Virus record (IMG/VR): IMGVR_UViG_3300025889_000535
Span: 1-32,358 of that record
Length of the DNA stretch: 32,358 nt
From: a virus
Reading direction: 5' to 3' (one strand)
The notes below the pieces were generated by a model, which was not told the origin of the DNA, did no database searches, and saw nothing but the letters and a program-made list of their open reading frames with translations. Both the position numbers and the translations under genes were made by a program. Positions 19,180 through 32,322 of this stretch are shown here, piece after piece. Position 1 is the stretch's first letter. Each line of letters begins with the position of its first letter.

Positions 19180-19302
19180 ATGATTAGTTGGAAGTCGTTT
19201 AAACTACCTCCAATTAATCTTTGGAACATTCCTTACCAGGATAAAAGGGATGGAAGTTGGCAGGTAGGTTTATATAATCTTGATAAAGACAAGCAGTCCT
19301 AA
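19180..19302 (+). CDS. Small protein at the end of the structural operon
   Basis: The product has 40 residues. It starts two bases after the previous stop and is the last plus-strand gene of the left half. The sequence begins MISWKSFKLPPINLWNIPYQ and continues with charged residues to LYNLDKDKQS. Trp, Pro and aromatic residues are dense, as in short peptides that are conserved rather than random. It overlaps the 3' end of the minus-strand gene at 19214-19429 by 89 bases in tail-to-tail orientation. It also contains a GTTTAAAC copy (19197-19204). Function unknown. Confidence 0.55.
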   Translation: MISWKSFKLPPINLWNIPYQDKRDGSWQVGLYNLDKDKQS

Positions 19303-19429
19303 AGTCTCTAGGCTCTACTGTTTTAATTAAACATTTATTAACGTAGTCTGTAGCATGGGCACACGATTCAAAGTTGCCCTCGTACATAGGTGTGTTGTTG
19401 ATATATACAACTAAAACATATTCAAACAT
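19214..19429 (-). CDS. Small protein, last gene of the minus-strand operon
   Basis: The product has 71 residues and reads MFEYVLVVYINNTPMYEGNF, then a Cys/His-containing helix (ESCAHATDYVNKCL), and ACLYQDYINLP near the end. Small proteins of the pattern YVLVVYING.P.Y.GNF.SC..A..Y are common in marine podoviruses; function unknown. It has a clear Shine-Dalgarno, AGGAGAC, a few bases before the ATG. A hairpin at 19452-19482 lies in its leader. It converges on, and overlaps, the last plus-strand gene. Confidence 0.72.
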   Translation of the reverse strand: MFEYVLVVYINNTPMYEGNFESCAHATDYVNKCLIKTVEPRDFRTACLYQDYINLPANFHPFYPGKECSKD

Positions 19430-19451
19430 ATATGTCTCCTGTAAAAGTATA

Positions 19452-19482
19452 GGTAGTAGAGGAGAGGCGAACCCCTACTACC
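19452..19482. other. Inverted repeat in the leader of the last minus-strand gene
   Basis: GGTAGTAG (19452-19459) pairs with CTACTACC (19475-19482). Two more G-C pairs are possible inside after a bulged A, leaving a loop of about 10 bases. It lies between the SLOG gene stop and the start of the 71-residue gene. No T-run follows directly on either strand, so it is not a standard terminator. It could be an mRNA processing or stability element, or a weak bidirectional terminator near the point where the two operons meet. Confidence 0.5.
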
Positions 19483-19494
19483 ATACACGTCTCC

Positions 19495-19869
19495 CTAGTC
19501 AGGGACTTTAACTACCATCACTGGTAGATTTCTTTTCTGGGCATACTTAATACCATACTCTGTACCTTTACTACGAGTATCCCAGATGGCTAGAACTTTA
19601 TCTGCGTTATCTATCATCTGTTTAGTTCTAACAAAGAAATACTTACTATCAAATTCTGCTGTAGGATCTATTAGATGGTAGGGTATAAACTCTACAACAT
19701 CTATTCCTCGAGCCTCAGCATACTTCTTTGATAATGGGTCGACACCCTTGGCACTCCCTAGGAGGAAGGTGAGAGTGCCCGTGCCGTGCTCTTTGATAAA
19801 GCGATCTATGATAGGAAAGACCTTTTCTGCTTTATCGATAGAGCGAGAACCAATTATACATACTTTCAT
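19495..19869 (-). CDS. SLOG/DprA-like Rossmann-fold protein
   Basis: The product has 124 residues. Its motifs are those of the SLOG superfamily (Smf/DprA, LOG and DUF2493 relatives): MKVCIIGSRSI at the first strand and nucleotide loop, LLGSAKGVDPLSKKYAEARG as the second glycine motif with helix, then MIDNADKVLAIWDTRSKGTE, where the acid and the Ser-Lys-Gly-Thr-Glu segment are typical ligand-binding residues. Such proteins bind nucleotides or nucleotide-derived ligands. In DUF2493-type phage proteins the actual ligand is usually unknown. Its place after the ribonucleotide reductase fits nucleotide metabolism, while a role in countering nucleotide-signal defence is possible but unproved. It overlaps its upstream neighbour as TAATG. 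Confidence 0.8.
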   Translation of the reverse strand: MKVCIIGSRSIDKAEKVFPIIDRFIKEHGTGTLTFLLGSAKGVDPLSKKYAEARGIDVVEFIPYHLIDPTAEFDSKYFFVRTKQMIDNADKVLAIWDTRSKGTEYGIKYAQKRNLPVMVVKVPD

Positions 19870-20006
19870 TATCTATACCACGCTAATTGAATTCTGATTA
19901 TTAATAAATCAATTAGACAATATCCTACTTCAACACCATTTACCTCTGCTTCAGTAAATTCAATGCCTAATTGAACCCCACATATAGGTTGTATAGTGGC
20001 AATCAT
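19869..20006 (-). CDS. Tiny hydrophobic protein after the reductase
   Basis: The product has 45 residues. Its ATG overlaps the reductase stop by one base (TAATG) and its own stop overlaps the SLOG start in the same way, so it fills the gap exactly and must be a real cistron. It begins MIATIQPICGVQLGIEFTEA and ends with a hydrophobic segment IDLLIIRIQLAWYR. The pattern of a short amphipathic strand followed by IDLLIIRIQ recalls tiny proteins of unknown role found in other marine phages. Membrane association is possible but the segment is short. Confidence 0.62.
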   Translation of the reverse strand: MIATIQPICGVQLGIEFTEAEVNGVEVGYCLIDLLIIRIQLAWYR

Positions 20007-21880
20007 TATATCTCACAGCTTCCTGCTGTACAAGCTAATGTTTGCTGACCTATTGTATTATCTTCCATCTCTACAAACTCTGTCCAATCAATCGTCTTAG
20101 GAGTCTTAGCTAGAAGTTCTTCATACTGTTCTTTACTACAGTCTTCGTAAGGAGCCTGTTGATAAGTATGATCACTGTGTGGTAGGAAAGATACACCTGA
20201 GATTTCATCAAAGTGTTTCCAAACCCAAGCACCAACCTCAACCCACTCATCATCTTTAACAGAGATAGTGACTGAAGGTTTATGCTCACACCAATGTCTT
20301 TGATAGATAATCCAATTCTCTAACTGCTCAAGAGCTGTCATACCATCTCTAAGAATAGCACCTTTAGGAGCTTTCATAGGGAATGTAAACACTGCTGTAT
20401 TGTCAGGTCTAAATGCTTCATCCTCTACAGCTACTCCTTTGTCTTTGAGGAATCCATAGATGGGGTCTTTTTTGTCCATTCTGATTCGTCTATAGTAATA
20501 GTCATTGTGCCGTGTATGTATACCGCTAGCAGAGTCAACCAACTGAGAAACAGTACCGCTAGGCTTAACACAAGTAATTGATGCAGAAACTGGAATATCC
20601 AATCGCTTAGCGTACTTTTCGTTTGTTTTTCTTGCTTCATCTCTTAGCCTTTCTAGCATTTCAGGGTTAGGATTAGAAGTAATCTCAGCATCCATGATGC
20701 CTGTCATTGATACTCCTAGTAATCTTTCTTCTTCTGTATTCTGTTTCCACTCAGCAGATAAGAATTTAAAGTCTGTTAGAGTCGATTGGATAGTACCAAG
20801 AATAGTGGCAAGTCGAACTTTTCTAGCAAGGGATTCTTCTGTATCATTTGCTCGTACGACCACTTCCGTAAGGTTACAGAATTGCTTATCACGGAGTATA
20901 ATCTCTGAACAAGGATTGGTTCCGTAACTAAAATCTGGACTTCTACGTCCCCACTTATTTGCTTGATCCTGTGCAGCGATTCTATTAAAGATACCTCGTT
21001 CACCTGATTTTGACTTAACCAATGATACCCATTCTTCCATGAAAGTTTCACTGTCAGGTTTCTCTGTATAGGCAACTGAGTTGTTGGCAAGACCTCGATG
21101 TGGGTGATCATTATACCAGGCTCCCATTTTAGCTTCACGCATTCTGCGATCAGTCAAGTTAGATAAAGAGATAAGAGCAGAACGTCTTACACCTCCAACA
21201 ACAACGATCTCTCCAATCATACACATAATATCATGTACTTCGATAGAGTTTAGCTTACGTCCTTTAGCATGTTTAAACGTCTCCGTTACGAATTCAAATA
21301 ACCTTTTCAATGGATCAGGACCACTGGCTCTACCACCAAATGTTTTTAGTCTAGCTCCTGCAGGTCGTACTCGAGAGAAATCAAACTTAGGAATATCACC
21401 TTCATAGAGTGATGACAGGAGTTTCTTGAAAGCCTTTGCCCAACCTAATTTACTGTCTTCGACAACGATTAAGTCATCACAGATCTTCAGGTCGAGGGGT
21501 ATGGCAGGAAGCTTATCAATCTCCTGTCGCTCACAACTAAAACCTACACCAGTCCCATTCATTAGGATGTATAGAGCTTCACTAAATGCTCGTTTATTAT
21601 TTACTGCTAAGTAAGAACAGTTGTAAGCAGAGATGTTATCTCTTTCACAAGCTTCTCCTGCAGTCATTAATAATCTCATAGAAGGCATAACTTCAAGATT
21701 AAGAACGGCTTCTTTAATCTCTTTGATTTCCTTCTTTAAATCAGGTGTCTTTGTTTCTAGGTAGGTAACTAAACGATCAACTGTTTCTGACCATGTTTCT
21801 CTTCTGTTTTTCTCAGGTATGAATCTAGCATATCGAGACATCGCAATTACATCTTGATATACTGTAGGTAAATTACTCAT
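20006..21880 (-). CDS. nrdJ: Class II (adenosylcobalamin-dependent) ribonucleotide reductase
   Basis: The enzyme converts ribonucleotides to deoxyribonucleotides for phage DNA synthesis, generating its thiyl radical with adenosylcobalamin. The 624-residue chain carries NCSY with Cys88, the active-site motif NPCSEI with the radical Cys324 and Glu326, Cys335 in FCNL, and the C-terminal shuttle pair Cys617 and Cys622 in ACTAGSC. Spacing (Cys/Glu two apart, second redox Cys 11 residues on, CX4C tail) matches the monomeric RTPR type of Lactobacillus leichmannii (739 residues), common in marine podoviruses. No small subunit is needed or seen. It depends on the host for B12. A GTTTAAAC copy lies inside at 21271. 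The start overlaps the preceding gene by eight bases. Confidence 0.95.
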   Translation of the reverse strand: MSNLPTVYQDVIAMSRYARFIPEKNRRETWSETVDRLVTYLETKTPDLKKEIKEIKEAVLNLEVMPSMRLLMTAGEACERDNISAYNCSYLAVNNKRAFSEALYILMNGTGVGFSCERQEIDKLPAIPLDLKICDDLIVVEDSKLGWAKAFKKLLSSLYEGDIPKFDFSRVRPAGARLKTFGGRASGPDPLKRLFEFVTETFKHAKGRKLNSIEVHDIMCMIGEIVVVGGVRRSALISLSNLTDRRMREAKMGAWYNDHPHRGLANNSVAYTEKPDSETFMEEWVSLVKSKSGERGIFNRIAAQDQANKWGRRSPDFSYGTNPCSEIILRDKQFCNLTEVVVRANDTEESLARKVRLATILGTIQSTLTDFKFLSAEWKQNTEEERLLGVSMTGIMDAEITSNPNPEMLERLRDEARKTNEKYAKRLDIPVSASITCVKPSGTVSQLVDSASGIHTRHNDYYYRRIRMDKKDPIYGFLKDKGVAVEDEAFRPDNTAVFTFPMKAPKGAILRDGMTALEQLENWIIYQRHWCEHKPSVTISVKDDEWVEVGAWVWKHFDEISGVSFLPHSDHTYQQAPYEDCSKEQYEELLAKTPKTIDWTEFVEMEDNTIGQQTLACTAGSCEI

Positions 21881-22064
21881 CTAAATCTATCTCCTCTTTT
21901 AAATTATCAACTTCTTCTATCAACTTATCAAAGTTATCTTCTATCTTATCTTGAAACTTTTCTACGATTTCTTCTGATTCAATATCGAGTAACTCTAATA
22001 GTTCTGTTTCTTCCATCTTACAGAGTTCTTCTTTAAGTTCTTGGAAGGTTAGGTTATTTGCCAT
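21873..22064 (-). CDS. Acidic helical small protein upstream of the reductase
   Basis: The product has 63 residues, reading from the ATG at 22064; an in-frame start farther upstream would run through the 44-residue gene and is less likely. It begins MANNLTFQELKEELCKMEET and is almost wholly Glu/Leu/Asp/Lys, with leucine and isoleucine spaced as in a coiled coil (LLELLDIESEEIVEKFQDKI). The tail is acidic (EEIDLDE). Its start overlaps the upstream gene by 11 bases and its end overlaps the reductase. I do not recognise a family; a helical dimer or an acidic mimic protein are both possible. Confidence 0.62.
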   Translation of the reverse strand: MANNLTFQELKEELCKMEETELLELLDIESEEIVEKFQDKIEDNFDKLIEEVDNLKEEIDLDE

Positions 22065-22468: not shown

Positions 22469-22471
22469 AAT

Positions 22472-22500
22472 ATTATACCTCGTTTAAACGCTTTTGTCAA
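22472..22500 (-). promoter_or_regulatory. Perfect consensus sigma70 promoter with GTTTAAAC in its spacer
   Basis: On the minus strand the sequence reads TTGACA (22500-22495), a 17-base spacer, then TATAAT (22477-22472). Both boxes match the consensus at six of six. The spacer holds CGTTTAAACG (22481-22490), a copy of the palindrome abundant in this half. Predicted initiation is at about 22465, inside the start codon of the 97-residue gene, so the transcript would mainly serve genes downstream (44- and 63-residue proteins and the reductase). A protein bound at the palindrome would cover the spacer and should repress. Confidence 0.78.
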
Positions 22501-23269
22501 GCTTTTTACCATACTTTTGTTTAAGATAATTAATACTTACTGCCATCTCATCAAAAGAACCATCATTAACTTCATGGAGCATATAGAATCCTCTCCAGTG
22601 TTGATTAGTCTGAGAACTTAAATAATCCTCATCGTGTTCGTAGCATGATCCTGCAATAATAGCTGTAATGTCTCTTCCGTCTGCTCGACTGGAGTAAGCA
22701 ATTTGTCTTCCTTGTTGATGTCCTGCGAAACATGACATGTGCTTACGAGTAAGTAGCGTTCTAGCCGATGTAATCGGTCTTCCCATGACACCACTTGCGA
22801 AATAGTGACTATAAGCAATACCATCAACAACGACCACATCAAGAAAAGGATACACAGTCCAACCATATTCTTCATATTTAAGATCTCCTATGCTAATTAA
22901 ATCTTCTAACTTACGATCATTATTGATAGCTCGATCAATACGATCCTCATGATTACCTAAAGTTAATATCATCTCAGGTTTATAAAGTTTACGTTTGTCT
23001 TTACGCTGTCTGTTTTGTAATCGAACTAGAGGAGCTGTAAGGGCATCCATAGCTTTATGAACTGCTTTAATATCTGCCTTATAAGTTCTGCCTTCAAAGG
23101 CTTTCTTACCTGTATCATACGAAGAAAGACTAGGCATATCTGCAAAGTCTCCTATACATACAATAACATCAGGTTGTTTATCTACGATGTATTGACCTAA
23201 CCATCTTAAATACTGTACCGAGTGTCCTGGTTTAACCTGACAATCAGGTATCACTAAGTGCTTTCTCAT
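22484..23269 (-). CDS. Calcineurin-like metallophosphoesterase
   Basis: The product has 261 residues with the motif series of binuclear metallophosphoesterases: IPDCQVKPG (Asp9), GDFADM (Asp41), GNHEDR (Asn106, His107), YSH (His155) and AGHQQG (His184). The DCQ form of the first motif replaces the usual DxH, as in many phage members. Substrates are unknown; relatives hydrolyse phosphodiesters in nucleotides or nucleic acids. It is placed at the end of the replication gene block, after endonuclease I and a small gene, and overlaps the latter by four bases. Its stop codon TAA is formed by the GTTTAAAC copy at 22482-22489. Confidence 0.88.
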   Translation of the reverse strand: MRKHLVIPDCQVKPGHSVQYLRWLGQYIVDKQPDVIVCIGDFADMPSLSSYDTGKKAFEGRTYKADIKAVHKAMDALTAPLVRLQNRQRKDKRKLYKPEMILTLGNHEDRIDRAINNDRKLEDLISIGDLKYEEYGWTVYPFLDVVVVDGIAYSHYFASGVMGRPITSARTLLTRKHMSCFAGHQQGRQIAYSSRADGRDITAIIAGSCYEHDEDYLSSQTNQHWRGFYMLHEVNDGSFDEMAVSINYLKQKYGKKLDKSV

Positions 23270-23463
23270 GAAAGTTTACCTCCAGAATTTATAAAATAAT
23301 CTATCTCTGCCTCAATGTCTCCTTGATCTTCTACTCTAATGACTCCCATATTAATTAATTGCATAACAGCAAATTCAATAAGAGCTTGAGCTTCTTGATC
23401 ATCTACTTCACATTTAAAAGAACAACTACCATCTTCATTTCTTAAGAAGTTTTTTATAATCAC
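23266..23463 (-). CDS. Small acidic protein, unknown function
   Basis: The product has 65 residues. It begins MIIKNFLRNEDGSCSFKCEV, has a helix QEAQALIEFAVMQLINMGVI and an acidic C-terminal half. It overlaps endonuclease I by 29 bases and the metallophosphoesterase by four (ATGA), so translation is probably coupled. The short strand followed by helix is compatible with a small alpha/beta fold. No family or motif can be named. Confidence 0.65.
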   Translation of the reverse strand: MIIKNFLRNEDGSCSFKCEVDDQEAQALIEFAVMQLINMGVIRVEDQGDIEAEIDYFINSGGKLS

Positions 23464-23821
23464 TTATCCAATCCTTTCTAGCATCAAGCCATTCGAATCC
23501 ATTATCTTCAGCCCACATCCAATAGGATGTTTTACTTCCTTTACGAATCTTAACATCAGGATTCATAAATAAGAATATAATACGAGTCTTTGGATTGCAC
23601 TGTTTAAACCACACCATTTTCTTTCTAGTCTCTAAATCTAGTTTACCTTTAGCCTCGATGTAGATCTCAGCAGTTCCAGGTTTAAAGTCAGGAATATAGG
23701 TGCGTTCTATTGCAGGTTGGATATAGGAATATTTGTTGGGTTCATACTTACAAGCTGTAAATACTTTCTTAAGTTTATCCCAAACTGTCTTTTCAAACTT
23801 ACTTCTGAATGAGGGCATCAA
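23435..23821 (-). CDS. Endonuclease I (Holliday junction resolvase, T7 gp3-like)
   Basis: The enzyme resolves branched DNA before packaging and helps degrade host DNA. Its 128 residues include the catalytic set Glu10, Asp45 (YIPDF), Glu56 and Lys58 (IEAKG). Spacing agrees well with Glu20, Asp55, Glu65 and Lys67 of T7 endonuclease I (149 residues), including the 35-residue gap between the first pair. The C-terminal part with WAEDNGFEWLDARKDW is also typical. It overlaps the exonuclease by 23 bases. A GTTTAAAC copy is at 23602. Confidence 0.92.
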   Translation of the reverse strand: MMPSFRSKFEKTVWDKLKKVFTACKYEPNKYSYIQPAIERTYIPDFKPGTAEIYIEAKGKLDLETRKKMVWFKQCNPKTRIIFLFMNPDVKIRKGSKTSYWMWAEDNGFEWLDARKDWISDYKKLLKK

Positions 23822-24497
23822 ATCTATCCTTATAATAAGAGTTTTCTTCTCGTAGAATCCATAAGCATCCTGCGTTCATAAGAAACTCGTTATCGTTACC
23901 ATAAAGGTTTCTGACAACACTAAGCATATCAAGTTCGTTTAAACAAGATGCTAACAAAGTTTTAGCTTTCTTATCACCAATCTTCTCAATACCTTTAATA
24001 TTGTCAGAGGTATCACCCTTAAGACATTGTTCATAAAATAGACGAAGACCCTCTAGTTCTGTCTGATCAACAAAAGTATCAGGTCTTGTCCATCCTTTGC
24101 CACTGATTTCCCAGGAGAAATGCTTCCCTGGTATCTGGAGTAAATCTTTATCAAGGGAACATATTATCGTATTATCTGTTTGATTTATTCCCAAAGCATC
24201 ATCTGCTTCTAACCCATCAGGGGCAAGTTCTGCATTTAAAGATTGCATCGCATAATCACGACACGCATCTAAATGCACAGGTTTAGGTGCTCGTCTATGA
24301 GCTTTGTATTCAGGATAAATAGTTTTCCTGAAATTACGAGAGCCTGTAAGAAATGCTTGATATTCACTAGATCCTGTCTTCTCAAGTATTTGATCAAACA
24401 GTTCGTTTAAACGATATATAGCAATACCTACATCATCTTTCTCAGCACTCGCTGCACATCGAAAGCACACTAAATCCATGTCGACTAAAGCTTTCAT
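23799..24497 (-). CDS. 5'-3' exonuclease (FEN family, T7 gp6-like)
   Basis: The product has 232 residues. It shows acidic metal-binding residues Asp6 and Asp8 (LVDMDLVCFRC), a helical-arch region with arginines and lysines (RKTIYPEYKAHRRAPKP), LEADDALG (Glu97, Asp99, Asp100), CSLDKDLLQIPG (Asp116, Asp118) and GDTSDNIKGIEKIGDKKA, the helix-hairpin-helix type DNA-binding element with Asp162 and Asp165. It removes RNA primers and degrades host DNA. It shares the operon with polymerase, SSB and endonuclease I, as in T7. Two GTTTAAAC copies (23937, 24405) lie in the gene, both coding Leu-Asn-Glu-Leu. Confidence 0.92.
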   Translation of the reverse strand: MKALVDMDLVCFRCAASAEKDDVGIAIYRLNELFDQILEKTGSSEYQAFLTGSRNFRKTIYPEYKAHRRAPKPVHLDACRDYAMQSLNAELAPDGLEADDALGINQTDNTIICSLDKDLLQIPGKHFSWEISGKGWTRPDTFVDQTELEGLRLFYEQCLKGDTSDNIKGIEKIGDKKAKTLLASCLNELDMLSVVRNLYGNDNEFLMNAGCLWILREENSYYKDRFDALIQK

Positions 24498-25015
24498 TAT
24501 AATGGAATATCGTCTTCCATATCTGCAACTGAATTAGCAGAATTGTTATCCATTACAAAGTTCTCAAACTCTTTAGCCATACCTAGAATGTCTGCTACTG
24601 ATGGTCTTTTACCTTCAGCAGTTAGAGCAGTAATAGCAGAAGAAATTGATGACTGTCTTACGATCATAACTTGACGTTGTGCTCGTTCTTCTTTAGTTTC
24701 ATAATTACTACCAGTGACTCGTGTAGTTGGTTTAGCATTACTTGAAGTACTTGTAGCTTGTGCTATTGCATCAGCTCCAATACTAATCCACTGCCAATAA
24801 CCATTGTCATCCTTCTGAGTATTGACATCTACTGTATCACCTTTTTGCCATTCTTTAGCCTGTTTAAACACATCAGGATTACTGAATGACATTAGCTTTT
24901 TAGATTGCACTTGACCACTATCATTCTTGTATGTTACTTCCATTGACTGATATGATCTACCATTCTTAGTTGAATGAGTATTAGGTTGTCCTACATCAAT
25001 TACTGTGATTTGCAT
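24497..25015 (-). CDS. Single-stranded DNA-binding protein (T7 gp2.5 role)
   Basis: The product has 172 residues. The first 85 read as an OB-fold (MQITVIDVGQPNT, YQSMEVTYKNDSGQVQSKKL, GDTVDVNTQKDDNGYWQWI). A Ser/Thr-rich linker and a helical region follow. The end is the acidic tip DMEDDIPL, which resembles the terminal acidic tail by which SSBs contact polymerase and helicase. The gene lies between polymerase and exonuclease and overlaps the former by 20 bases and the latter by one. The family assignment is by fold pattern and position; the acidic tail is the best evidence. It contains a GTTTAAAC copy (24862). Confidence 0.78.
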   Translation of the reverse strand: MQITVIDVGQPNTHSTKNGRSYQSMEVTYKNDSGQVQSKKLMSFSNPDVFKQAKEWQKGDTVDVNTQKDDNGYWQWISIGADAIAQATSTSSNAKPTTRVTGSNYETKEERAQRQVMIVRQSSISSAITALTAEGKRPSVADILGMAKEFENFVMDNNSANSVADMEDDIPL

Positions 25016-25721
25016 TTATAATCTCCATATCACCCCATGTTTGTCCAACTTGACATTCGACTCGCATAGGTAAATTAAATTCTACTCCGAATAACCTACT
25101 AAAATTATCAGGAATATCCTCGAAACATTTATCAACTATGTTGACCAATGTAACATTATCCCATACTTTTGGATCAAAGTCAAGGATAATTGAATCGTGA
25201 ACAGTATTCACCATCTTCACTCCATCACGACCTTTAAGACGATTCCTCAATGACACTCGAGCTATCGCCATTAAATCTGCACCTAGTCCTTGAACTGGAT
25301 AATTTAATATCTTTGTTCGAGGATACTTCATCTTACCATACTTAATCTCAGGCTCATAAAAGTAAGTTCGTCCTGTTGGCATGATAAGCTTATGATCTCT
25401 TGTAGCTTTAAATACAATCTCTTCGTGCCACTGATAGAGTTGTTTGTATTTACCATAGAATTCTTTAATGATCTTTTCCCAGTAGTCTTCATTACCTACA
25501 TCTTTGAAGTTAGGATCATTAGCATAAGACCAGGCACTACCTCCATAGATCAATCTAAATACGAATGTCTTAGCAATCAATCTACTAGGTAATCCAAATC
25601 TCTTCTGATTATCAGAGTGCATATCTGTGCCTTGCCATATCTCATCAATCGCTATTTGATCTTGAGACAGATAACTGGCACCTACCCACTCTAGTTGTTT
25701 TGCATCTGCTTGTAATAACAT
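24996..25721 (-). CDS. DNA polymerase family A, C-terminal palm/fingers piece (split)
   Basis: This 241-residue protein starts just before motif A and holds the whole active site. Motif A is LLQADAKQLEW (Asp6). Motif B is RLIAKTFVFRLIYGG (Arg47, Lys51, Phe55, Tyr59). Motif C is TVHDSI (His175, Asp176). Phe55 equals Phe762 of E. coli Pol I. Length from motif A to the end resembles T7 gp5 (about 230). The N-terminal piece, with the exonuclease and thumb, is a separate gene at 26166-27323, and two small genes lie between. Since all motifs are present across both pieces, they probably assemble into one enzyme. Starts by TAATG overlap with the 84-residue gene. Confidence 0.93.
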   Translation of the reverse strand: MLLQADAKQLEWVGASYLSQDQIAIDEIWQGTDMHSDNQKRFGLPSRLIAKTFVFRLIYGGSAWSYANDPNFKDVGNEDYWEKIIKEFYGKYKQLYQWHEEIVFKATRDHKLIMPTGRTYFYEPEIKYGKMKYPRTKILNYPVQGLGADLMAIARVSLRNRLKGRDGVKMVNTVHDSIILDFDPKVWDNVTLVNIVDKCFEDIPDNFSRLFGVEFNLPMRVECQVGQTWGDMEIINANHSN

Positions 25722-25975
25722 TAGTAATGCCTCTTAATATAATCTATTAATTTCTTTTTAGATGGAACAGACAAATTCTTCATGAGAAACTCAACACCTT
25801 CAATCATAATTAAATCTTCAATGTCTTTAGATATATACTGCATCCAAGCTCTATCAAGTCCCATCTTTTCAATGTGTTCATATAACTCGTTTAAACGATC
25901 ACTACGAGGATTATCATTACGAAAGTAATCATCTATACCTGTAATAGCTACGCTTATTTTCTTGCTATGACTCAT
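25721..25975 (-). CDS. Small protein inserted in the polymerase split (second of two)
   Basis: The product has 84 residues, mainly helical. It contains DYFRNDNPRSDRLNELYEHI and DRAWMQYISKDIEDLIMIEG, and ends GVEFLMKNLSVPSKKKLIDY followed by IKRHY. Its last 25 residues align without gaps to those of the neighbouring 64-residue protein, with 8 identities and many similar residues, so the two are probably paralogues. Starts and ends are TAATG overlaps with its neighbours. A GTTTAAAC copy (25889) codes Arg-Leu-Asn. It may help the two polymerase pieces to assemble, or it may simply have landed in a tolerated site. Confidence 0.72.
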   Translation of the reverse strand: MSHSKKISVAITGIDDYFRNDNPRSDRLNELYEHIEKMGLDRAWMQYISKDIEDLIMIEGVEFLMKNLSVPSKKKLIDYIKRHY

Positions 25976-26169
25976 TAATAGTGTTTAGCTAGCCACTTAA
26001 CAATCTGTTCAGTAGAGTAATCATTAAGATGTTCCATAACGATCTCAACACCTATTTCTTGAATGATTGTGTTTATGTCATTAACTGTATGCACTACATA
26101 AGCTTCTTCCTGATCTGATTGAAGTTGCATACCCTCATCATAATCAGGTGTGTAATTGTCACTGTTCAT
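25975..26169 (-). CDS. Small protein inserted in the polymerase split (first of two)
   Basis: The product has 64 residues. The N-terminal half is acidic and polar (MNSDNYTPDYDEGMQLQSDQ). The C-terminal half is a helical domain INTIIQEIGVEIVMEHL and then EQIVKWLAKHY, related to the C-terminus of the adjacent 84-residue protein. It begins in ATGA overlap with the stop of the polymerase N-terminal piece, with AAGGAGG just upstream, and ends in TAATG overlap with the next gene. Translation of the four cistrons is therefore probably coupled. No known family recognised. Confidence 0.7.
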   Translation of the reverse strand: MNSDNYTPDYDEGMQLQSDQEEAYVVHTVNDINTIIQEIGVEIVMEHLNDYSTEQIVKWLAKHY

Positions 26170-27323
26170 ACTGCCTCCTTATATCTTGATAATAATAGAC
26201 CTTTGATTTCACTATCAAAGTTTTGTAAATTAGGTTTACTACTTGATAGTCTACCTGTCCTTGCTACGCACTGGTTAAGTTGACCATAAATATGACCTCG
26301 TTCCCAGTTTTGTTCTGTAATCAAATTAACTAAACCTTTATAGTATGCTGTCATTCTCTTCTCTAAAACGGCTCTTGTCAATATGATCTTAATAACTTCT
26401 GAAGCTTTCTTCGATCCTGCTAAACTCCTAAGTGTTTGCTCATCAGTAGAATATAAACCTTCTTTTTCTAATTCTGAGCCTTTTAATGGTTTAACAAGCC
26501 TAGGTAATTCTAGTTCTTTGTCTCTCCATCTCATTCTTACTTCACCTTTTTTCTGTCCTGATTTAAATATACCATCAGGTTCTTGCTCCCTATACTTAAT
26601 AGTGCCACCATAAAGAAGAGCACTGACGTGATCGACACTACTAGCATTAAAAGAGGGGAAGTTATGGTAACTATACAATCTCTGATCAAGCTTAGCAATC
26701 TGTTCCTCCAATTCATTACCTAAAATCTCTGACTTATCCTGATCGTATAAGACTCCATTAAACTCCATTTCCTCAAGAACAAGTAAGTCCTGATTGTGTA
26801 AGCTGATTAGTCTTTTAAGATGTGAGTTAGCCTCAAGATCTTCTAACTGTTTTAAATATACTTGCTCTGTAAGATCTAAATCTTTCTGCAAATACTCCTC
26901 TAGAATATCACGAGGAATCTCATTAGTATCAATGCCATTCTTCCAATACTCTTCTTTAACTATGTCTAGTTTAGTCTCTAGTCCATAGTGTTCACAAACT
27001 TGATTCAAGCTAGGATATGGTTTTGATTGACCTGTTAGCATGAAATGCACCAACTGACAATCCCATATTCTCTTCTCTTGAAAGTCTATGCCATATTTAC
27101 GAATCCAATGTAAATCAAATTTAATATTGAATCCTACAAGCATATCATGATTGTTGATGACCGACTGAACATGATCAAGATCATCACGATATGGATGTTC
27201 TGTATACTCGATGTCATAGATACCATTGTCTTTGAGACCTATGAGACAGAGCTTGTTTAAACGACTGAAGGGATTACCTTTATTCTGAATCGTTGTCTCT
27301 ACGTCTAGCGTTAGATGTTTCAT
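26166..27323 (-). CDS. DNA polymerase family A, N-terminal exonuclease/thumb piece (split)
   Basis: The product has 385 residues. The 3'-5' proofreading domain is intact: LTLDVETT (Asp7, Glu9), GFNIKFD (Asp70) and EYLQKDLD (Tyr144, Asp148). The thumb and first palm element follow, ending with ARTGRLSSSKPNLQNF, the conserved sequence that precedes motif A in whole enzymes. The chain then stops after LSRYKEAV. The missing part is encoded by the gene at 24996-25721, beginning at motif A, so the break lies exactly between NLQN and motif A and nothing essential is lost. The 5' end overlaps the zinc-ribbon gene by 44 bases. It replicates the phage genome together with the helicase and primase downstream partners. 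Confidence 0.93.
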   Translation of the reverse strand: MKHLTLDVETTIQNKGNPFSRLNKLCLIGLKDNGIYDIEYTEHPYRDDLDHVQSVINNHDMLVGFNIKFDLHWIRKYGIDFQEKRIWDCQLVHFMLTGQSKPYPSLNQVCEHYGLETKLDIVKEEYWKNGIDTNEIPRDILEEYLQKDLDLTEQVYLKQLEDLEANSHLKRLISLHNQDLLVLEEMEFNGVLYDQDKSEILGNELEEQIAKLDQRLYSYHNFPSFNASSVDHVSALLYGGTIKYREQEPDGIFKSGQKKGEVRMRWRDKELELPRLVKPLKGSELEKEGLYSTDEQTLRSLAGSKKASEVIKIILTRAVLEKRMTAYYKGLVNLITEQNWERGHIYGQLNQCVARTGRLSSSKPNLQNFDSEIKGLLLSRYKEAV

Positions 27324-27447: not shown

Positions 27448-28675
27448 AACGAGCAACCTCAGGTCTGATAAGAACCTGTGTAGAACCATGTCTTAACTCA
27501 GGTAGAGTGTCGACATCCCCTATCAGTTTGTTCTTACAAATGTTTAAGAAACGAAGTCTTGATGTATTGTCTTGTTCTTTACCAATACCAAGAATCCAAT
27601 CTGCCTCGCCTTGCTTACCTGTTTTAGAACCATCTACCATGTCCATTGTAAGCCATAACTTACCCTCAGCCTCACCACTAGCCTGAGATACTGCAATCAC
27701 TGGGGCATATCTCTTTGCTATTTCCCTTGCCCATTGATAAATCGCCTTAAGCTCCAAGTCGTTACGATCAGCTTTAAAGCCTTTGATCTTATCGATCTGA
27801 TCGAAAATAATCAAGGCAGGGGTAGATTCCTTGAGTATTGCATCGATCCTTGAAGCTCGAGACGAATCATCAAAATCGTAAATCTTAATTCGTCCTCCAC
27901 CTAGAGAAATAAACTTCTCTTGATTGTGTTCTTTGTCATTGAAGAGTGGATCTAATTCTAATCCAAGCATAGCTTGAAAGCATCGTATAGCTACTTTCTT
28001 ACCTTGTTCTTCGTTGTTGAACCAAATAATTTCACCCTCTGTTTGTTGAACCATCTTTGTTACTTCACTAGCTAAGAATGTTGTCTTACCTGTTTCTGGT
28101 CTTGCGAAGATAAAACCAAAATCACCTTTTCTGAGTGAACCTAGTGCTTGGTTTAGCCATTTCAATCTCCATCGTAATCCAGGAGTTTCTATCTGAGAGT
28201 CATAGAGTTCGTTTAGATCCATGATAACTTCCTGTGCCTCATCTGCCTCAATCTGTGAGTGGTCGAACTCGTCATAGATCTTGTGGAGTTCCTCGATATC
28301 TGCCTTGCCATCCTCTACATCGAGAGCAATACGAGCAATCTCACCTGAGAGACATCTCTTACGATGTTCTTCGAGTAAGTCTATAACTGCTTCAGGGTTT
28401 GTGATTTCAATAGCGAAGATGTCTTCGATCAGAGAAGTGATCTCTTTTCGTTCCATCTCGTTTAGGAGGTAGTTAGAATTGTATGCTAATTCTAATTCAG
28501 ATTTATTAATATTATTATTATTAATATATTTATTATAATAATTATTTATAATAATAAATAATTTATATATATTAATATAATTAATTTTAATATAATTAAT
28601 ATTAACATATTTATAAAACTTTGTAAAGAGATTTCTATCTTCACAAAATAACTTAATTATCTGCTTTTCAACCAT
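27434..28675 (-). CDS. Replicative DNA helicase (DnaB/T7 gp4B-like)
   Basis: The product has 413 residues. The C-terminal RecA-type motor shows a Walker A-like loop ARPETGKTTF (191-200), a Walker B strand ALIIFDQID near 290-300, and later SQASGEAEGKLWLTMDMVDG with GSKTGKQGEADWILGI, the loops that contact DNA and the arginine-finger region of hexameric helicases. The primase is a separate gene just upstream, so the T7 gp4 fusion is divided here. Residues about 24-58 are encoded only by A/T codons (Asn, Ile, Tyr, Lys, Leu, Phe), giving a low-complexity segment (see 28501-28605). It overlaps the primase by 19 bases. Confidence 0.92.
   Translation of the reverse strand: MVEKQIIKLFCEDRNLFTKFYKYVNINYIKINYINIYKLFIIINNYYNKYINNNNINKSELELAYNSNYLLNEMERKEITSLIEDIFAIEITNPEAVIDLLEEHRKRCLSGEIARIALDVEDGKADIEELHKIYDEFDHSQIEADEAQEVIMDLNELYDSQIETPGLRWRLKWLNQALGSLRKGDFGFIFARPETGKTTFLASEVTKMVQQTEGEIIWFNNEEQGKKVAIRCFQAMLGLELDPLFNDKEHNQEKFISLGGGRIKIYDFDDSSRASRIDAILKESTPALIIFDQIDKIKGFKADRNDLELKAIYQWAREIAKRYAPVIAVSQASGEAEGKLWLTMDMVDGSKTGKQGEADWILGIGKEQDNTSRLRFLNICKNKLIGDVDTLPELRHGSTQVLIRPEVARYEDI
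28501..28605. other. 105-base tract with no G or C, candidate replication origin
   Basis: Between the G at 28500 and the C at 28606 every base is A or T. The tract lies in the helicase gene and stays open on the minus strand by using only AT codons (AAA, AAT, ATA, ATT, TAT, TTA, TTT). It has many short inverted and direct repeats of the ATTAAT and TATTAT type. Such a tract would melt easily and is the kind of sequence found at phage origins next to the primase and helicase genes. No initiator site is proved. Confidence 0.55.
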
Positions 28676-29352
28676 TCTACAATTTCCCCTTTTGTATATT
28701 CTTTTGGATCTTTATCGGTAACGATCACTCTACTGTCTAATCCTCTGCTTGTCAACTTCCTCTTGATTCTCAGAGCATTCAGTGCTTTGTCTCGATCAAG
28801 CCAAACTGCAACCTGTTTAAACGACTCTACGATTTGATTCTCAAATTCGTAAGAGAGTGAAGACCCCAACAATGGAGCTGAACAAAAACCACTTCGAGTC
28901 CTTGCAACTCTCATCGCTGAGATAATGTCTTCAACAAGCACGAGAGTATCACCCTCACCATAGATTGTCAATGGCTTTATACCACTCGACATATATTTAA
29001 TTTTACTTGTTGGATCGAACACTCGACCTTGCCAATATTTAGCCGTGTCAAGTAGCACTAATAATTGTTTTTTAGCATCCCATTTGATGTCATATTCCTT
29101 AACTTCATCTTGGGAGATGCCGTAAGATAGCAACCATTTCATAGCATTTCGTGGTATTTCAGCGAAGTTACCTATCATATCTACCCCTTTATCGTCCTTA
29201 TTTTTATTGTAAATTCTACTACGAATACTGCCAATATCGTTCTTTAATTTGTAATATTTACAACCAAAGCAATATTGATGGTCATCGTAATCACCTAAAT
29301 TATCTCTTGAGCCACACTGTGGACAAGGTATATGTCCTAAAAATTGACTCAT
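28657..29352 (-). CDS. DNA primase (zinc-binding and TOPRIM domains)
   Basis: The product has 231 residues from the ATG at 29352; a GTG three codons upstream at 29361 is an alternative, but the GAGGGG Shine-Dalgarno is too near it. The N-terminal zinc domain has CPQC and CFGC with an intervening His in DDHQYC. The catalytic TOPRIM part shows LVLVEDIISAMRVART (Glu) and VAVWLDRDKA (Asp-x-Asp). It makes RNA primers for lagging-strand synthesis. Size and motifs correspond to the primase half of T7 gp4, the helicase half being the next gene. It is transcribed away from pqqA, sharing a 105-base intergenic region. Confidence 0.91.
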   Translation of the reverse strand: MSQFLGHIPCPQCGSRDNLGDYDDHQYCFGCKYYKLKNDIGSIRSRIYNKNKDDKGVDMIGNFAEIPRNAMKWLLSYGISQDEVKEYDIKWDAKKQLLVLLDTAKYWQGRVFDPTSKIKYMSSGIKPLTIYGEGDTLVLVEDIISAMRVARTRSGFCSAPLLGSSLSYEFENQIVESFKQVAVWLDRDKALNALRIKRKLTSRGLDSRVIVTDKDPKEYTKGEIVEWLKSR

Positions 29353-29405
29353 ACTTTTCACTACCCCTCAATCATGTTTAAACAATATCTAATAATTTAA
29401 TATTG

Positions 29406-29414: not shown

Positions 29415-29419
29415 ATTAC

Positions 29420-29441
29420 TATATACTGAAAAAAGTATATA
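29420..29441. repeat. Perfect inverted repeat in the pqqA leader
   Basis: TATATACT (29420-29427) and AGTATATA (29434-29441) form a perfect 8-base inverted repeat with a six-base loop GAAAAA. It begins at the predicted transcription start. In RNA it would form a 5' stem-loop that could stabilise a short abundant mRNA; in DNA it could be an operator. No T-run follows, so it is not a terminator. Confidence 0.6.
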
Positions 29442-29466
29442 AATTTCTAAAGAAAGGAACATCACT

Positions 29467-29538: not shown

Positions 29539-29739
29539 CTACAATTCATCGAAGGGATCATCTTCTACATCAGGATTGATGATCTCTTCATCTCTCAAAT
29601 CTTCCCTCTCATACATCGGTGTATCGCTACTAATAGTGCTATAACACCAGTTACATAAGTCAATGAACTCACCAGTTTCTGTTGATTTCCTTGTAGCCTC
29701 GAAATCACTCAACGCTTTATTACACGCTTTACATCTCAT
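29539..29739 (-). CDS. Small zinc-finger protein
   Basis: The product has 66 residues. Two CxxC pairs, CKAC at residues 3-6 and CNWC at 29-32, make a likely single zinc site. The core MRCKACNKALSDFEATRK with FIDLCNWCY is a pattern I associate with small zinc proteins encoded by many marine phages. The C-terminal half is acidic (EEIINPDVEDDPFDEL). DNA- or protein-binding is possible; function unknown. The stop codon abuts the pqqA stop tail-to-tail. Shine-Dalgarno AAGGAAC precedes the ATG. Confidence 0.75.
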   Translation of the reverse strand: MRCKACNKALSDFEATRKSTETGEFIDLCNWCYSTISSDTPMYEREDLRDEEIINPDVEDDPFDEL

Positions 29740-29747
29740 ATTGTTCC

Positions 29748-29930
29748 TTAGAATAGTGCCTCACCAACTTGTTTAAACAGTTCCTCTCTGATCTGTTCAT
29801 CTGTCTTGAAGTTCAATCTAATTATCTTGCAATCGTGTTTAAGACGTAAGAACCACTCAGCTTGGGAGAGAGAGTAAAACTTTCTGAGTGGCTCTCCTTC
29901 GTCATCAACTACAAGGTATTTAAATTCCAT
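29748..29930 (-). CDS. Small phage protein, unknown function
   Basis: The product has 60 residues from the ATG at 29930, preferred over a GTG five codons upstream. It begins MEFKYLVVDDEGEPLRKFYS, then LSQAEWFLRLKHDCKIIRL, and ends ELFKQVGEALF. The pattern of a strand, a helix with WFL and another strand resembles short alpha/beta proteins found among early genes of related phages. No function is assigned. A GTTTAAAC copy at 29771 codes Phe-Lys within FKQ. The Shine-Dalgarno is not obvious, so the start is less sure. Confidence 0.65.
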   Translation of the reverse strand: MEFKYLVVDDEGEPLRKFYSLSQAEWFLRLKHDCKIIRLNFKTDEQIREELFKQVGEALF

Positions 29931-29960
29931 ACCCAAGACTACCACAAAAACTATTGCTTG

Positions 29961-30113
29961 TCAAATACAAACTACAATTCCTGTGGAATCTGTCGAGCAT
30001 TGTATGATCGAACCATCAGGCATAATGATTGTAGTCGTGTCTGCCATCGAATCATACATCATAAACAGTGTTACTATAATTATTCCAACAAACGCTATAT
30101 TAACTAATCGCAT
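29961..30113 (-). CDS. Tiny exported or membrane-anchored protein
   Basis: The product has 50 residues. The N-terminus MRLVNIAFVGIIIVTLFMMY is a signal-peptide- or anchor-like hydrophobic segment with one early Arg, followed by DSMADTTT, where cleavage after SMA is possible. The mature part has IIMPDGSIIQC and ends GIVVCI, so two cysteines could form a disulphide in the periplasm. Tiny proteins with a leader and a MPDG...C...C pattern occur in other marine phages. A role at the envelope, such as lysis or exclusion of other phages, is possible but unproved. It overlaps the previous gene by 10 bases. Confidence 0.65.
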   Translation of the reverse strand: MRLVNIAFVGIIIVTLFMMYDSMADTTTIIMPDGSIIQCSTDSTGIVVCI

Positions 30114-30274
30114 TCGTAATCTCCTTCATCAAAATCACCTTTATTAAATCTATCCTTAGCCGAATCAGATGCCAAAATACAAGCCTGTTCACCTATGAAT
30201 CCTTGTTCATGCCAAAATTCTAACTCTTCCTCATATAGTTTTTCAAGTATTAAATCATTTTCTATACAACTCAT
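30104..30274 (-). CDS. Small acidic protein, unknown function
   Basis: The product has 56 residues, beginning MSCIENDLILEKLYEEELEF, then WHEQGFIGEQACILASDS and an acidic tail FDEGDYECD. It starts in TAATG overlap with the previous gene and overlaps the following one by 10 bases. AAGGAG near its 3' end serves the following gene. No family recognised; the tight overlaps on both sides support its being real. Confidence 0.63.
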   Translation of the reverse strand: MSCIENDLILEKLYEEELEFWHEQGFIGEQACILASDSAKDRFNKGDFDEGDYECD

Positions 30275-30525
30275 TAGTCTGTCCCTCCTACTTTAAATGG
30301 TTCAATTTCATGAACTAAATCAGTTTGAAAACCTGTTTGATCGATTACATATGTTCCGTTGTAATCAGCAACTAACTCTTCAATAGCTAACTCTTGGGCT
30401 TCCTCTTCATCAAATGCCTCAACCTCTACCTCATAAGTAACTACCTCACTCATTCGAACTACATACTTCTTTGGTTTATCAGTGAGATGTTCATCACCAT
30501 GCCATAAATCATTACTTGATTTCAT
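30274..30525 (-). CDS. Small protein of the beta-beta-alpha early family
   Basis: The product has 83 residues. The core YVVRMSEVVTYEVEVEAFDE is followed by a helix EEAQELAIEELVAD. The arrangement of a strand, a strand ending VEVEA, and an acidic helix is shared with the proteins at 31235 and 31426. It resembles DpnD/PcfM-type small phage proteins of unknown function. The Shine-Dalgarno AGGAGAATA lies before the ATG. The stop overlaps the next start (TAATG). Confidence 0.7.
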   Translation of the reverse strand: MKSSNDLWHGDEHLTDKPKKYVVRMSEVVTYEVEVEAFDEEEAQELAIEELVADYNGTYVIDQTGFQTDLVHEIEPFKVGGTD

Positions 30526-30527
30526 AT

Positions 30528-30671
30528 TTATTCTCCTCTTTTATATAAAATATCTTCAATAGATTCTCTAAAATAAATATCACTCATGCCATAACTAGAA
30601 TGTTTTATTTGATAATCTAATTCTTTTAATAAATTTAATAATTTATCTGTTGACCAATATTTGTATTTCAT
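30528..30671 (-). CDS. Small protein, unknown function
   Basis: The product has 47 residues: MKYKYWSTDKLLNLLKELDY, then YGMSDIYFRESIEDILYKRG. It has an AAGGAGG Shine-Dalgarno about eight bases before the ATG, one of the strongest in the region. The start overlaps the upstream stop as ATGA. The two short helices may form a helical hairpin. No family recognised. Its 3' end supplies the AGGAG for the next gene. Confidence 0.65.
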   Translation of the reverse strand: MKYKYWSTDKLLNLLKELDYQIKHSSYGMSDIYFRESIEDILYKRGE

Positions 30672-30847
30672 TTTAAATTCCTCCTTAAATCATCAGTGTA
30701 ACTATCGTGATATACAATGTCAACAGGTCTCTTATATCGTTTAAACGCTTCCTCTACTGCACTCTCGTAACTAATCGATTTAATATAACCTATTGATTCG
30801 TTTGAAGTTAAATCAAATACTTCGTAAATGTAATCAATCTTTTGCAT
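30668..30847 (-). CDS. Small protein, unknown function
   Basis: The product has 59 residues: MQKIDYIYEVFDLTSNESIG, then a strand and the helix YESAVEEAFKRYKRPVDIVY. The order of strands and helix suggests a small alpha/beta fold. It overlaps the upstream gene by 14 bases and the next by four (ATGA). A GTTTAAAC copy at 30739 codes Phe-Lys with a GCG codon before it, unusual for this AT-rich gene set. A weaker promoter-like sequence lies in its 3' part (30695-30723). Confidence 0.63.
   Translation of the reverse strand: MQKIDYIYEVFDLTSNESIGYIKSISYESAVEEAFKRYKRPVDIVYHDSYTDDLRRNLK
30695..30723 (-). promoter_or_regulatory. Possible sigma70 promoter within an early gene
   Basis: On the minus strand TTGACA (30723-30718) is followed after 17 bases by TACACT (30700-30695), which matches TATAAT at four of six positions. 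It would start transcription about 17 bases before the ATG of the 47-residue gene, with its AGGAGG site in the leader. It lies inside coding sequence, so it may be chance. Confidence 0.35.
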
Positions 30848-31064
30848 TGTCTACTCTCCGTATTCGATAATCTTCTAAAGAGTATTCATCTTTGATGAAC
30901 CCTCTCTCATAAGCTTCTTGCTCTTCTTTAAGAAACAAATCTAAACTTTCCTTTGCCTCTTTCTTTGAGTGGAAAACCACTGGCTTATCTTCATCATCCA
31001 TCCAACAGTTTTCCCAATCATTGAGCATTGAGCGTGTCTCTACTACATACCTCCTACTGCCCAT
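30834..31064 (-). CDS. Small charged protein, unknown function
   Basis: The product has 76 residues: RRYVVETRSMLNDWENCWMD, then VVFHSKKEAKESLDLFLKEE and SLEDYRIRRVDN. The YVVETR...ENCW...F.SK.EA pattern is similar to small early proteins of other marine phages which have a strand-strand-helix form. It overlaps the upstream gene by 11 bases and the next by 14. Function unknown. AGGAG precedes the ATG inside the upstream gene. Confidence 0.68.
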   Translation of the reverse strand: MGSRRYVVETRSMLNDWENCWMDDEDKPVVFHSKKEAKESLDLFLKEEQEAYERGFIKDEYSLEDYRIRRVDNAKD

Positions 31065-31242
31065 ATAAATCTCCTAACTTTCTATCTATGTCTCGAAAGA
31101 TAGCATCTAATGTTTCGTCTGAGATCACTGAACTATCGAACTCATGGTATTCAATGAAGTCATCGTTTAAACGCAATCTAATCTTCAACTTAATATCTAA
31201 ATCATAATCTTCTAATTCACTAGCTGTGTATCCACTACTCAT
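31054..31242 (-). CDS. Small protein, unknown function
   Basis: The product has 62 residues from the ATG at 31242. This start is chosen because AAGGAGG lies six bases before it; a start seven codons upstream has no such site and would overlap the Shine-Dalgarno. It begins MSSGYTASELEDYDLDIKLK and continues IRLRLNDDFIEYHEFDSS with a C-terminal helix. It overlaps its upstream neighbour by eight bases. A GTTTAAAC copy at 31165 codes Arg-Leu-Asn. Unknown function. Confidence 0.66.
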   Translation of the reverse strand: MSSGYTASELEDYDLDIKLKIRLRLNDDFIEYHEFDSSVISDETLDAIFRDIDRKLGDLYGQ

Positions 31243-31423
31243 GAGCAACCTCCTTTTCATCAAGTTCTATACTATCTATATCGACTGTTGCATCATAACA
31301 CTCAGCCGAATCCCAATCAGTTTCGTTACGATTAAACATTTCTCTTACCTCTTTCTCGTTATCAGCTTCTACCTCAACGACATGATATAAAGTTTCTATC
31401 ATATATAAATTAAATTTAGGCAT
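31235..31423 (-). CDS. Small protein of the beta-beta-alpha early family
   Basis: The product has 62 residues: MPKFNLYMIETLYHVVEVEA, then the helix DNEKEVREMFNRNE and an acidic end. The VVEVEADNEKE core resembles those at 30274 (VEVEAFDEEE) and 31426 (IEVNADNEDD), which suggests three diverged copies of one gene. Its ATG uses the last base of a GTTTAAAC-ATG junction: the previous gene ends in the TAA of that palindrome (31424-31431). GGAGG lies about 10 bases before the ATG. Confidence 0.7.
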   Translation of the reverse strand: MPKFNLYMIETLYHVVEVEADNEKEVREMFNRNETDWDSAECYDATVDIDSIELDEKEVAHE

Positions 31424-31425
31424 GT

Positions 31426-31635
31426 TTAAACAACCTCCTCTATGTAATCTAAATTATATTCATCACAATAACCTGTCTCTATTCTGAAGTCATCACCTCG
31501 TAATGCCTCATTAATCTTGTCATCGTAATCCCCTTGTTTGATACCCTCAATAGCATCATCTTCATTGTCTGCGTTTACCTCGATTGTTACTTGCTTTGAA
31601 AAGTAAACGTTTACATCTGCTTTGAACTTAGCCAT
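31426..31635 (-). CDS. Small protein of the beta-beta-alpha early family
   Basis: The product has 69 residues: MAKFKADVNVYFSKQVTIEV, then NADNEDDAIEGIKQGDYDD and DDFRIETGYCDEYNLDYI. The order strand, strand ending IEVNADNEDDA, helix matches the proteins at 30274 and 31235. Its stop codon is the TAA within a GTTTAAAC copy. AAGGAGAAAGG precedes the ATG. DpnD/PcfM-like proteins of similar form are of unknown function; some small phage proteins of this size inhibit host enzymes, but there is nothing here to show that. Confidence 0.7.
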   Translation of the reverse strand: MAKFKADVNVYFSKQVTIEVNADNEDDAIEGIKQGDYDDKINEALRGDDFRIETGYCDEYNLDYIEEVV

Positions 31636-31646
31636 AACCTTTCTCC

Positions 31647-31907
31647 TTAAATTACAGGTAGCACCTGTGGTTCACCACTAATAGCTAAAGCACCACCTCC
31701 GTTACCCTCGTCATCACGTTGTGGCACAACCCAACTCCCATCATCAAAAAACAAAATGATTGATCGTTCATACCAACCCATCTTGTCAGCCTCATCCTGT
31801 GTCATATATCTTGCCTCTTTGATTGTCCTACCCACTAAAGCTTTTCTAGCTAAGTCATTCCAATAGGCTCGTGTATCATCTTCTGTTTTAAATAATCTCT
31901 CAGGCAT
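31647..31907 (-). CDS. Conserved small phage protein, unknown function
   Basis: The product has 86 residues: LVGRTIKEARYMTQDEADKM, then GWYERSIILFFDDGSWVVPQ and RDDEGNGGGAL. The pattern GRTI..ARYMT..EA..MGW..R...L.FDDG....P..DDEGN.GGAL is one I recognise as widespread in phages of many hosts, annotated as hypothetical. It is likely a compact beta-rich fold. It overlaps the upstream gene by eight bases, and AAGGAGAAA precedes the ATG. Confidence 0.76.
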   Translation of the reverse strand: MPERLFKTEDDTRAYWNDLARKALVGRTIKEARYMTQDEADKMGWYERSIILFFDDGSWVVPQRDDEGNGGGALAISGEPQVLPVI

Positions 31908-32322
31908 AACTTTTCTCCTTGTAGTTTGGATTTCTATTTAATAGTTCCATGTAATCATTGTATGTATAATCTGAAACTGTTTCGTCCAAGTCATTCCACA
32001 AAATAATATCAGCATAACCAAGCAACCAATATGTTTTACCCTTGTATGTCATCTTGTGCCTTTCCTCACTGTCTTTATCAAACATATTCTTTGTTGCTTT
32101 CTTTGTTGACCAAAAAGCTAAGGTGCTACCATCAACTGATTCGACTGCTTCCTTGATCTGTTTAAACGACCTCGACTTACTTACCACCCATTCCATAGAG
32201 TCATTAACTGATATATAAATATCGTTATAACTCAATGCGTTAAGAACTAAACCTTTCCATGATAGTCCTGAATTATCAGGATTCTCATAGGTGTCAAAAA
32301 CTTCTTGTAAACTTAATTTCAT
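31900..32322 (-). CDS. Early-region protein, unknown function
   Basis: The product has 140 residues: MKLSLQEVFDTYENPDNSGL, SWKGLVLNALSYNDIYISVN, then KGKTYWLLGYADIILWNDLD and a C-terminal Tyr/Asn-rich end. No known motif is visible. It is the first complete gene of the minus-strand operon in the window, with a good Shine-Dalgarno AAGGAG six to seven bases before the ATG. The 36 bases to the window edge hold only this leader. A GTTTAAAC copy at 32160 codes Phe-Lys with TCG before it. Confidence 0.68.
   Translation of the reverse strand: MKLSLQEVFDTYENPDNSGLSWKGLVLNALSYNDIYISVNDSMEWVVSKSRSFKQIKEAVESVDGSTLAFWSTKKATKNMFDKDSEERHKMTYKGKTYWLLGYADIILWNDLDETVSDYTYNDYMELLNRNPNYKEKSYA

Follow-up and report, generated by a model that had tools for sequence, protein, structure and literature searches.

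The DNA considered here, called the window throughout, is the whole of virus record IMGVR_UViG_3300025889_000535 (32,358 nucleotides, 32.4 kb), which is about 72% identical to the Zobellviridae phages MEP401 and MEP402 of Methylophilales. Its late genes lie on the plus strand and its early and replication genes on the minus strand, the latter encoding primase, helicase, a split DNA polymerase, an exonuclease, endonuclease I and ribonucleotide reductase. Scattered over it are 18 exact copies of the palindromic octamer GTTTAAAC, equivalent to 556 per Mb, with 16 copies between 19197 and 32167 and 2 in the remaining left part. Our subject is this word together with a phage SprT-like protein, which accompanies it across many lineages and is a candidate for the regulator that the sequence-only reading had called for without finding.

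The strong over-representation claimed in that reading was borne out by shuffling, by Markov models and by a codon-level null. In 100 dinucleotide shuffles of the window the word appeared 0.89 times on average and at most 5 times; it is the window's most over-represented 8-mer under a second-order Markov model (36 both-strand counts against 2.2 expected), and a fourth-order model expects 4.8. One-mismatch forms are not enriched in the window (34 copies with at most one mismatch against 20.7 expected). The 13 copies inside open reading frames (ORFs) compare with 1.49 expected and a maximum of 6 in 300 rounds of synonymous codon shuffling, and the 11 in minus-strand ORFs with 0.94 and a maximum of 3. 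A similar count under codon shuffling, named beforehand as possible grounds for rejection, was thus not obtained, and selection acts on the DNA word itself, codon choice being no explanation. The copies occupy both usable reading frames as well as stop codons and gene junctions, as had also been read from the letters. Another word, CACCTGAT, is over-represented in positions 1-19190 of the window (8 both-strand counts against 0.53 and 2.4 under the second- and fourth-order models).

The two left-hand copies, at 13213-13220 and 14095-14102, lie in one late gene (11171-16120); both are kept in the near-identical relatives G007 and G001, and in G017 the second is kept and the first, an outlier in the late half, reads GTTTCAAA. 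The copy at 19197-19204 sits between the late and the early genes where these converge and is kept in eight of eight aligned relatives, and that in the ribonucleotide reductase gene (21271-21278) is kept also in the approximately 74% identical G016 and G014, MEP402 having GTTTAAAT and MEP401 GTTTGAAT at this place. Every aligned relative of the window's clade has the copies at 22482-22489, which overlaps the stop codon of gene 22484-23269, at 23602-23609 in the endonuclease I gene (23435-23821) and at 24862-24869 in gene 24497-25015; the second of these is present also in G016 and G014 (MEP401 and MEP402 have CTTTAAAC) and the third in G016. Other copies vary. In the 5'-3' exonuclease gene, that at 23937-23944 is found in three relatives and altered elsewhere by multi-base changes (for example TGATAAAC), and that at 24405-24412 is replaced by ATTCATAC in several relatives, as is 25889-25896, in the small gene 25721-25975, by ATCTAAAC. 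The copy in the gene for the N-terminal part of DNA polymerase (27255-27262) is kept in all aligned relatives. DNA polymerase A itself is split over 24996-27323, with the exonuclease and the start of the polymerase domain in 26166-27323, the rest in 24996-25721 and two small ORFs between the halves; MEP401 and MEP402 are annotated with a similar split. The remaining copies lie in the primase gene 28657-29361 (28815-28822, kept in four of four aligned relatives), just upstream of the start of that gene (29376-29383, two of two), in the small early genes 29748-29945 (29771-29778, two of two), 30668-30847 (30739-30746, kept in the sole aligned relative, G005) and 31054-31263 (31165-31172, two of two), at the stop/start overlap where genes 31235-31423 and 31426-31635 meet (31424-31431), and in the early gene 31900-32322 (32160-32167, kept in the aligned relative G005).

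Loss of the word from relatives that keep the genes, the other outcome named as grounds for rejection, was looked for and the sites were found to be kept. Relatives about 74-88% identical retain them at a higher rate than frame-matched 8-mers; for the more distant relatives the counts are 3 of 5 against 0.52 expected (G016), 2 of 3 against 0.32 (G014), 7 of 8 against 3.2 (G003) and 5 of 6 against 2.5 (G017). In the nearest relatives the identity of the sites is not clearly above that of such 8-mers. Some sites were gained or lost through several base changes at once. Relatives that carry the window's replication module are enriched, with up to 17 copies in 12.4 kb; MEP401 has none, MEP402 two and the 44-kb relatives G023 and G024 two and one, and no sprT was detected in these four. 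In the comparison of clade A, clade B and relatives without the motif for a co-varying early protein, the clade B contigs are without the early region. One contig, G012 (74.8 kb; L117-L119, L131, L132), is much longer than its Zobellviridae-like relatives and possibly chimeric: the replication module of the window occupies one of its ends and related sequence the opposite one. Late-strand ORFs of relatives also hold the word (4 copies in G010 and 9 in G016). The claimed split of 2 against 16 is exact for the window, but the concentration in the minus half is a bias rather than a confinement, because relatives carry copies in late genes. These copies, and the palindromic nature of the word, also speak against the strand signal that had been proposed.

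Around the 58 non-redundant sites of the window's clade, with flanks symmetrised, a pyrimidine is preferred at position -1 and a purine at -5, preferences that are absent around control words, and the preferred form of the site is YGTTTAAACR. The -1 pyrimidine recurs in about 80-87% of 3035 distinct sites, in every class of GC (guanine plus cytosine) content, and among twelve single-base variants tested across that set only GTGTAAAC (3.2x) and ATTTAAAC (2x) are clearly raised. The -5 purine was rejected as a general feature of the site, being pronounced in the window's clade but faint or lacking in phages of higher GC content.

Across phage lineages the word is paired with sprT. Viral contigs were scanned for pairs of YGTTTAAACR, which returned contigs holding as many as 45 copies per 10 kb at GC contents of 0.30-0.63, one dense example holding 39 copies in 9.3 kb against 0.31 expected (control word 0); no isolates near three dense contigs were found among phage records. 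In 161 motif-rich loci, falling into 57 nucleotide clusters, a SprT-like metallopeptidase is the most widely shared family, present in 30 clusters (helicase 16, terminase 13). The gene lies at 2643-3299 of contig L087 and at 1195-1845 of contig L107, both of the window's clade, and when the end of the window is aligned with L087 and L432 the gene falls about 0.8-1.2 kb beyond position 32358, on the minus strand and transcribed towards the window. In a blind test viral loci were picked solely by SprT homology, in ignorance of the motif, and counted as enriched at p<1e-3. The first set gave 812 sites against 13.7 expected (59x; 79 of 79 loci enriched; 7 copies of the control word CAAATTTG) and the second 874 against 31.7 (27x; 67 of 81; 38 control copies); loci picked by portal gave 61 against 31.2 (2x; 2 of 80). 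When sprT and 300 bp on either side were removed, 1444 sites remained against 39.4 expected. In the reverse direction, sprT was found in 84 of 164 motif-rich and 1 of 38 motif-poor loci from the motif-pair scan (Fisher p 2e-9). The 91 enriched SprT loci of at least 9 kb form 24 unrelated nucleotide clusters, in which sprT is the sole family present in all 24, the next reaching 8; in 22 of them no 8-mer is more over-represented than GTTTAAAC. After dereplication at 75% identity, 90 of 101 SprT proteins have an enriched locus, part of these loci coming from the motif scan. This co-occurrence suggests an undescribed phage DNA-binding system; in the literature searched we found no paper describing the word or a link of it to sprT.

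The pairing is seen in isolates too. Dinoroseobacter phage R5C carries sprT and 17 sites in 77.9 kb, 8 of them in 37.9 kb where 0.02 are expected, Burkholderia phage Mica sprT and 7 sites (4 against 0.07 expected in the piece tested), and E. coli phage Bas97 sprT and 6 sites against 0.69 expected. Individual sites stand about 25 bp before sprT in L087 and L107 and about 20 bp before it in Bas97; in L087 (2600-2625) and L107 (1860-1885) the upstream site is found inside a longer GC-rich inverted repeat (GGGCGTGTTTAAACGYCCCC). Bas97 (L350) also holds AACAA-n3-TTGTT seven times against 0.05 expected, likely a repressor operator. Strong as it is in proteobacterial phages and metagenomic lineages, the pairing is not universal. 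Bordetella phage CN2 has no sites, and in the alignment its SprT is without the C-terminal KQxTR and zinc-ribbon residues.

The SprT-like protein of L087 scores 20.3 bits with the SprT-like profile PF10263, under the cut-off of 25.6; 35 of 43 members match this profile at E<=0.01 (best 5e-10), and no member of group A6, which is without HExxH, does. HExxH is present in the window's clade and in most relatives, with H80, E81 and H84 invariant in alignment A5, and is missing from 21 of 247 full-length members. The AlphaFold model of the L087 protein (predicted local distance difference test score, pLDDT, 91.4) matches SPRTN structures 6mdw (Z 8.2, root-mean-square deviation 3.8, 103 aligned) and 6mdx (Z 8.2), a Z near 8 being a modest structural match; a model of a member without HExxH (pLDDT 77) gives Z 6.5 with 6mdw, and Foldseek alone returned no significant PDB match and a weak match to CapP. 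In a tree of 112 SprT sequences, built by a quick method, members are motif-positive throughout apart from two clades, that of the actinophages and that of CN2/Epa5, and a few single rows, and HExxH changes three times, having been lost at least twice with the motif retained. Two stretches are common to members with and without HExxH: (N/T)RE.WL, close to the start, and YPHA...KQ(S/T)TR..K, accompanied by a zinc-ribbon-like end. The conserved ends and the loss of HExxH point to a core function that is non-proteolytic and directed at DNA.

Along the strand of sprT the density of sites is 0.13 per kb at -10 kb, 1.1 per kb at sprT and 1.2-1.65 per kb up to +9 kb, so that it is about tenfold lower upstream of the gene, and the profile of the window agrees. 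Non-ORF sequence, 12% of bases, is touched by 35% of the sites. Sixteen tight clusters of 4-6 sites with a spacing of 30-75 bp lie mostly between genes, several beginning 2-3 bases past a stop codon; the window holds no such cluster.

We put at about 60% the probability that the copies of GTTTAAAC are dispersed putative binding sites, of the form YGTTTAAACR, of the phage SprT-like protein, which would act through them on early transcription, as a roadblock or silencer, or on DNA architecture. An operator- or nucleoid-type DNA-binding site, among the roles first suggested for the word, is the best class of explanation. The protein would recognise the site through its conserved ends, chiefly the C-terminal KQ(S/T)TR..K and zinc ribbon, and, the site being palindromic, the binder should therefore be two-fold symmetric and is probably dimeric. 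It would coat the early and replication region downstream of its own gene, and the likeliest effect would be a multi-site roadblock or silencing of early transcription, or an architectural one, that is, an outcome like that of stoperators achieved with different parts. What the data show is an enrichment that does not depend on codons or base composition, the symmetric flanks, the pairing with sprT across lineages, the density profile around that gene and the retention of sites after loss of the protease motif; direct binding, dimerisation and the effect on transcription are what we infer.

In its working the system is most like the stoperators of Cluster A mycobacteriophages (L5/D29 type), which are likewise many short sites dispersed within and between genes and served by one phage-encoded protein. 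One report describes repressors that also halt elongation at numerous sites (PMC9283540). Stoperators, however, are asymmetric and read by an immunity repressor, whereas here a palindrome is linked with a SprT-like zinc protein: the asymmetry and fixed orientation of stoperators were not found, the site being a perfect palindrome whose symmetrised flank preferences fit both sides, and a Pfam search of 20 minus-strand proteins of the window revealed no repressor. With the SPRTN/SprT metallopeptidases the protein shares the fold of the protease domain, the Pfam SprT-like family, the C-terminal zinc-ribbon pattern and a DNA-linked function, but the targets of SPRTN are DNA-protein crosslinks, it is not known to bind DNA sequence-specifically, and several of the phage lineages are without HExxH. 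The cyanobacterial octamer HIP1 (GCGATCGC) is also an extremely over-represented palindrome within genes; it is a feature of host chromosomes, whereas the present word follows a phage gene and is not enriched in the bacterial genomes searched. Palindromic sites with a DNA-binding protein recall ParB-parS as well, but no ParB is shared, no second family occurring in more than 8 of the 24 clusters, and the word differs from parS. The system thus belongs with neither HIP1-like words nor restriction sites nor ParB-parS.

Several observations weigh against binding by the SprT-like protein. The gene sprT lies outside the window, its position being deduced from relatives. Reading of a specific sequence is not a known property of SPRTN-type proteins. 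The sites of lineages without HExxH are dense, but these loci come from the motif scan and their density is biased. No helical phasing was seen between adjacent sites. General autoregulation of sprT was considered and rejected, a site within the 170 bp before the gene being present in 20 of 68 cases, which hardly exceeds what the local density gives. Epa5, the neighbour of CN2 in the tree, has sprT and no sites, and actinophages whose SprT has an intact C-terminus show no clear enrichment (Emotion 0, Zeta1847 0, Percival 2, JackieB 1).

A replacement palindrome shared by the SprT actinophages was sought and none was found, the palindrome differing from phage to phage: that of Emotion is parS-like, Zeta1847 has TACACGCGTGTA and Percival GTATA-n4-TATAC. 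Arthrobacter phage Emotion (L345) has five parS-like TTTCACGTGAAAC at 1165, 2844, 3206, 8278 and 28149 and, besides its sprT-like gene, two annotated DNA-binding proteins. Microbacterium phage Zeta1847 (L346) has six TACACGCGTGTA and 68 CGAGCTCG against 13.6 expected.

But could the SprT-like protein be the partner of the binder rather than the binder? Metalloprotease-repressor pairs are known, and the zincin fold, with its Z of 8.2 to SPRTN and the weak match to CapP, would suit a protein that regulates or cleaves another phage protein bound at the sites, in the way that ImmA/IrrE- or CapP-type proteases act on their repressors. We regard this as unlikely, although it is the strongest of the alternatives, since no second family is nearly as widespread as sprT in the 24 clusters and lineages without HExxH keep their sites, and densely so. 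A little less probable again is that the sites mark replication, repair or packaging, either loading the SprT-like protein against roadblocks and crosslinks or acting as origin iterons. The sites do cover replication genes and the tight clusters are mostly intergenic, and eukaryotic SPRTN resolves DNA-protein crosslinks as a DNA-dependent protease (PMC5127644). Loss of HExxH in densely occupied lineages speaks against a proteolytic role, however, and most sites are intragenic and spread over many kb, unlike an origin, the window being without a tight cluster altogether.

We think it improbable that a host protein (a nucleoid factor, regulator or recombination enzyme) binds the sites and is exploited by the phages, with sprT as an accessory. 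Multi-site palindromes are typical of chromosomal organisers, yet in 369 Gammaproteobacteria genomes, which may not include the phage's host, densities reach some tens per Mb at most, far below the value of the window, and in most the word is near or below the control word. Moreover, the same word occurs in phages of an alpha-, a beta- and a gammaproteobacterium and at GC contents of 0.30-0.63, and members of the same phage family in which no sprT was detected have only 0-2 copies. That the word is a methylation site of a restriction-modification system, as had also been suggested, is very unlikely: GTTTAAAC is an 8-base palindrome and the type II recognition sequence of PmeI, but restriction favours avoidance and the word is enriched 27-59x in the blind SprT loci, and no methyltransferase-like family travels with it among the families shared by motif-rich clusters. 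That the enrichment is an artefact arising from codon usage, base composition or protein motifs is hardly credible, for although the word often encodes Phe-Lys in coding frames, the codon shuffle refutes it, both frames and an excess of non-ORF positions are used, and in 37.9 kb of GC-rich R5C all 8 occurrences of TTTAAA lie within GTTTAAAC.

Beyond the window, we incline slightly to the view that SprT-like proteins and pseudoproteases of proteobacterial phages form a new class of sequence-specific DNA binders, which would read YGTTTAAACR at tens of dispersed sites and constitute a control or chromatin-like system spanning the whole phage, passed between unrelated phages in the form of one gene and a word spread over the genome, protease activity being dispensable. 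A single phage gene predicts a scattered DNA word across hosts and base compositions. If the SprT-like protein is what reads it, the common annotation of these phage proteins as proteases would be wrong or incomplete, a metalloprotease fold would have become a sequence-specific binder at least partly without catalysis, and many uncultured phages would have a regulon that can be recognised from sequence alone. The role of tens of sites in the early region can be tested in Bas97, R5C and Mica.

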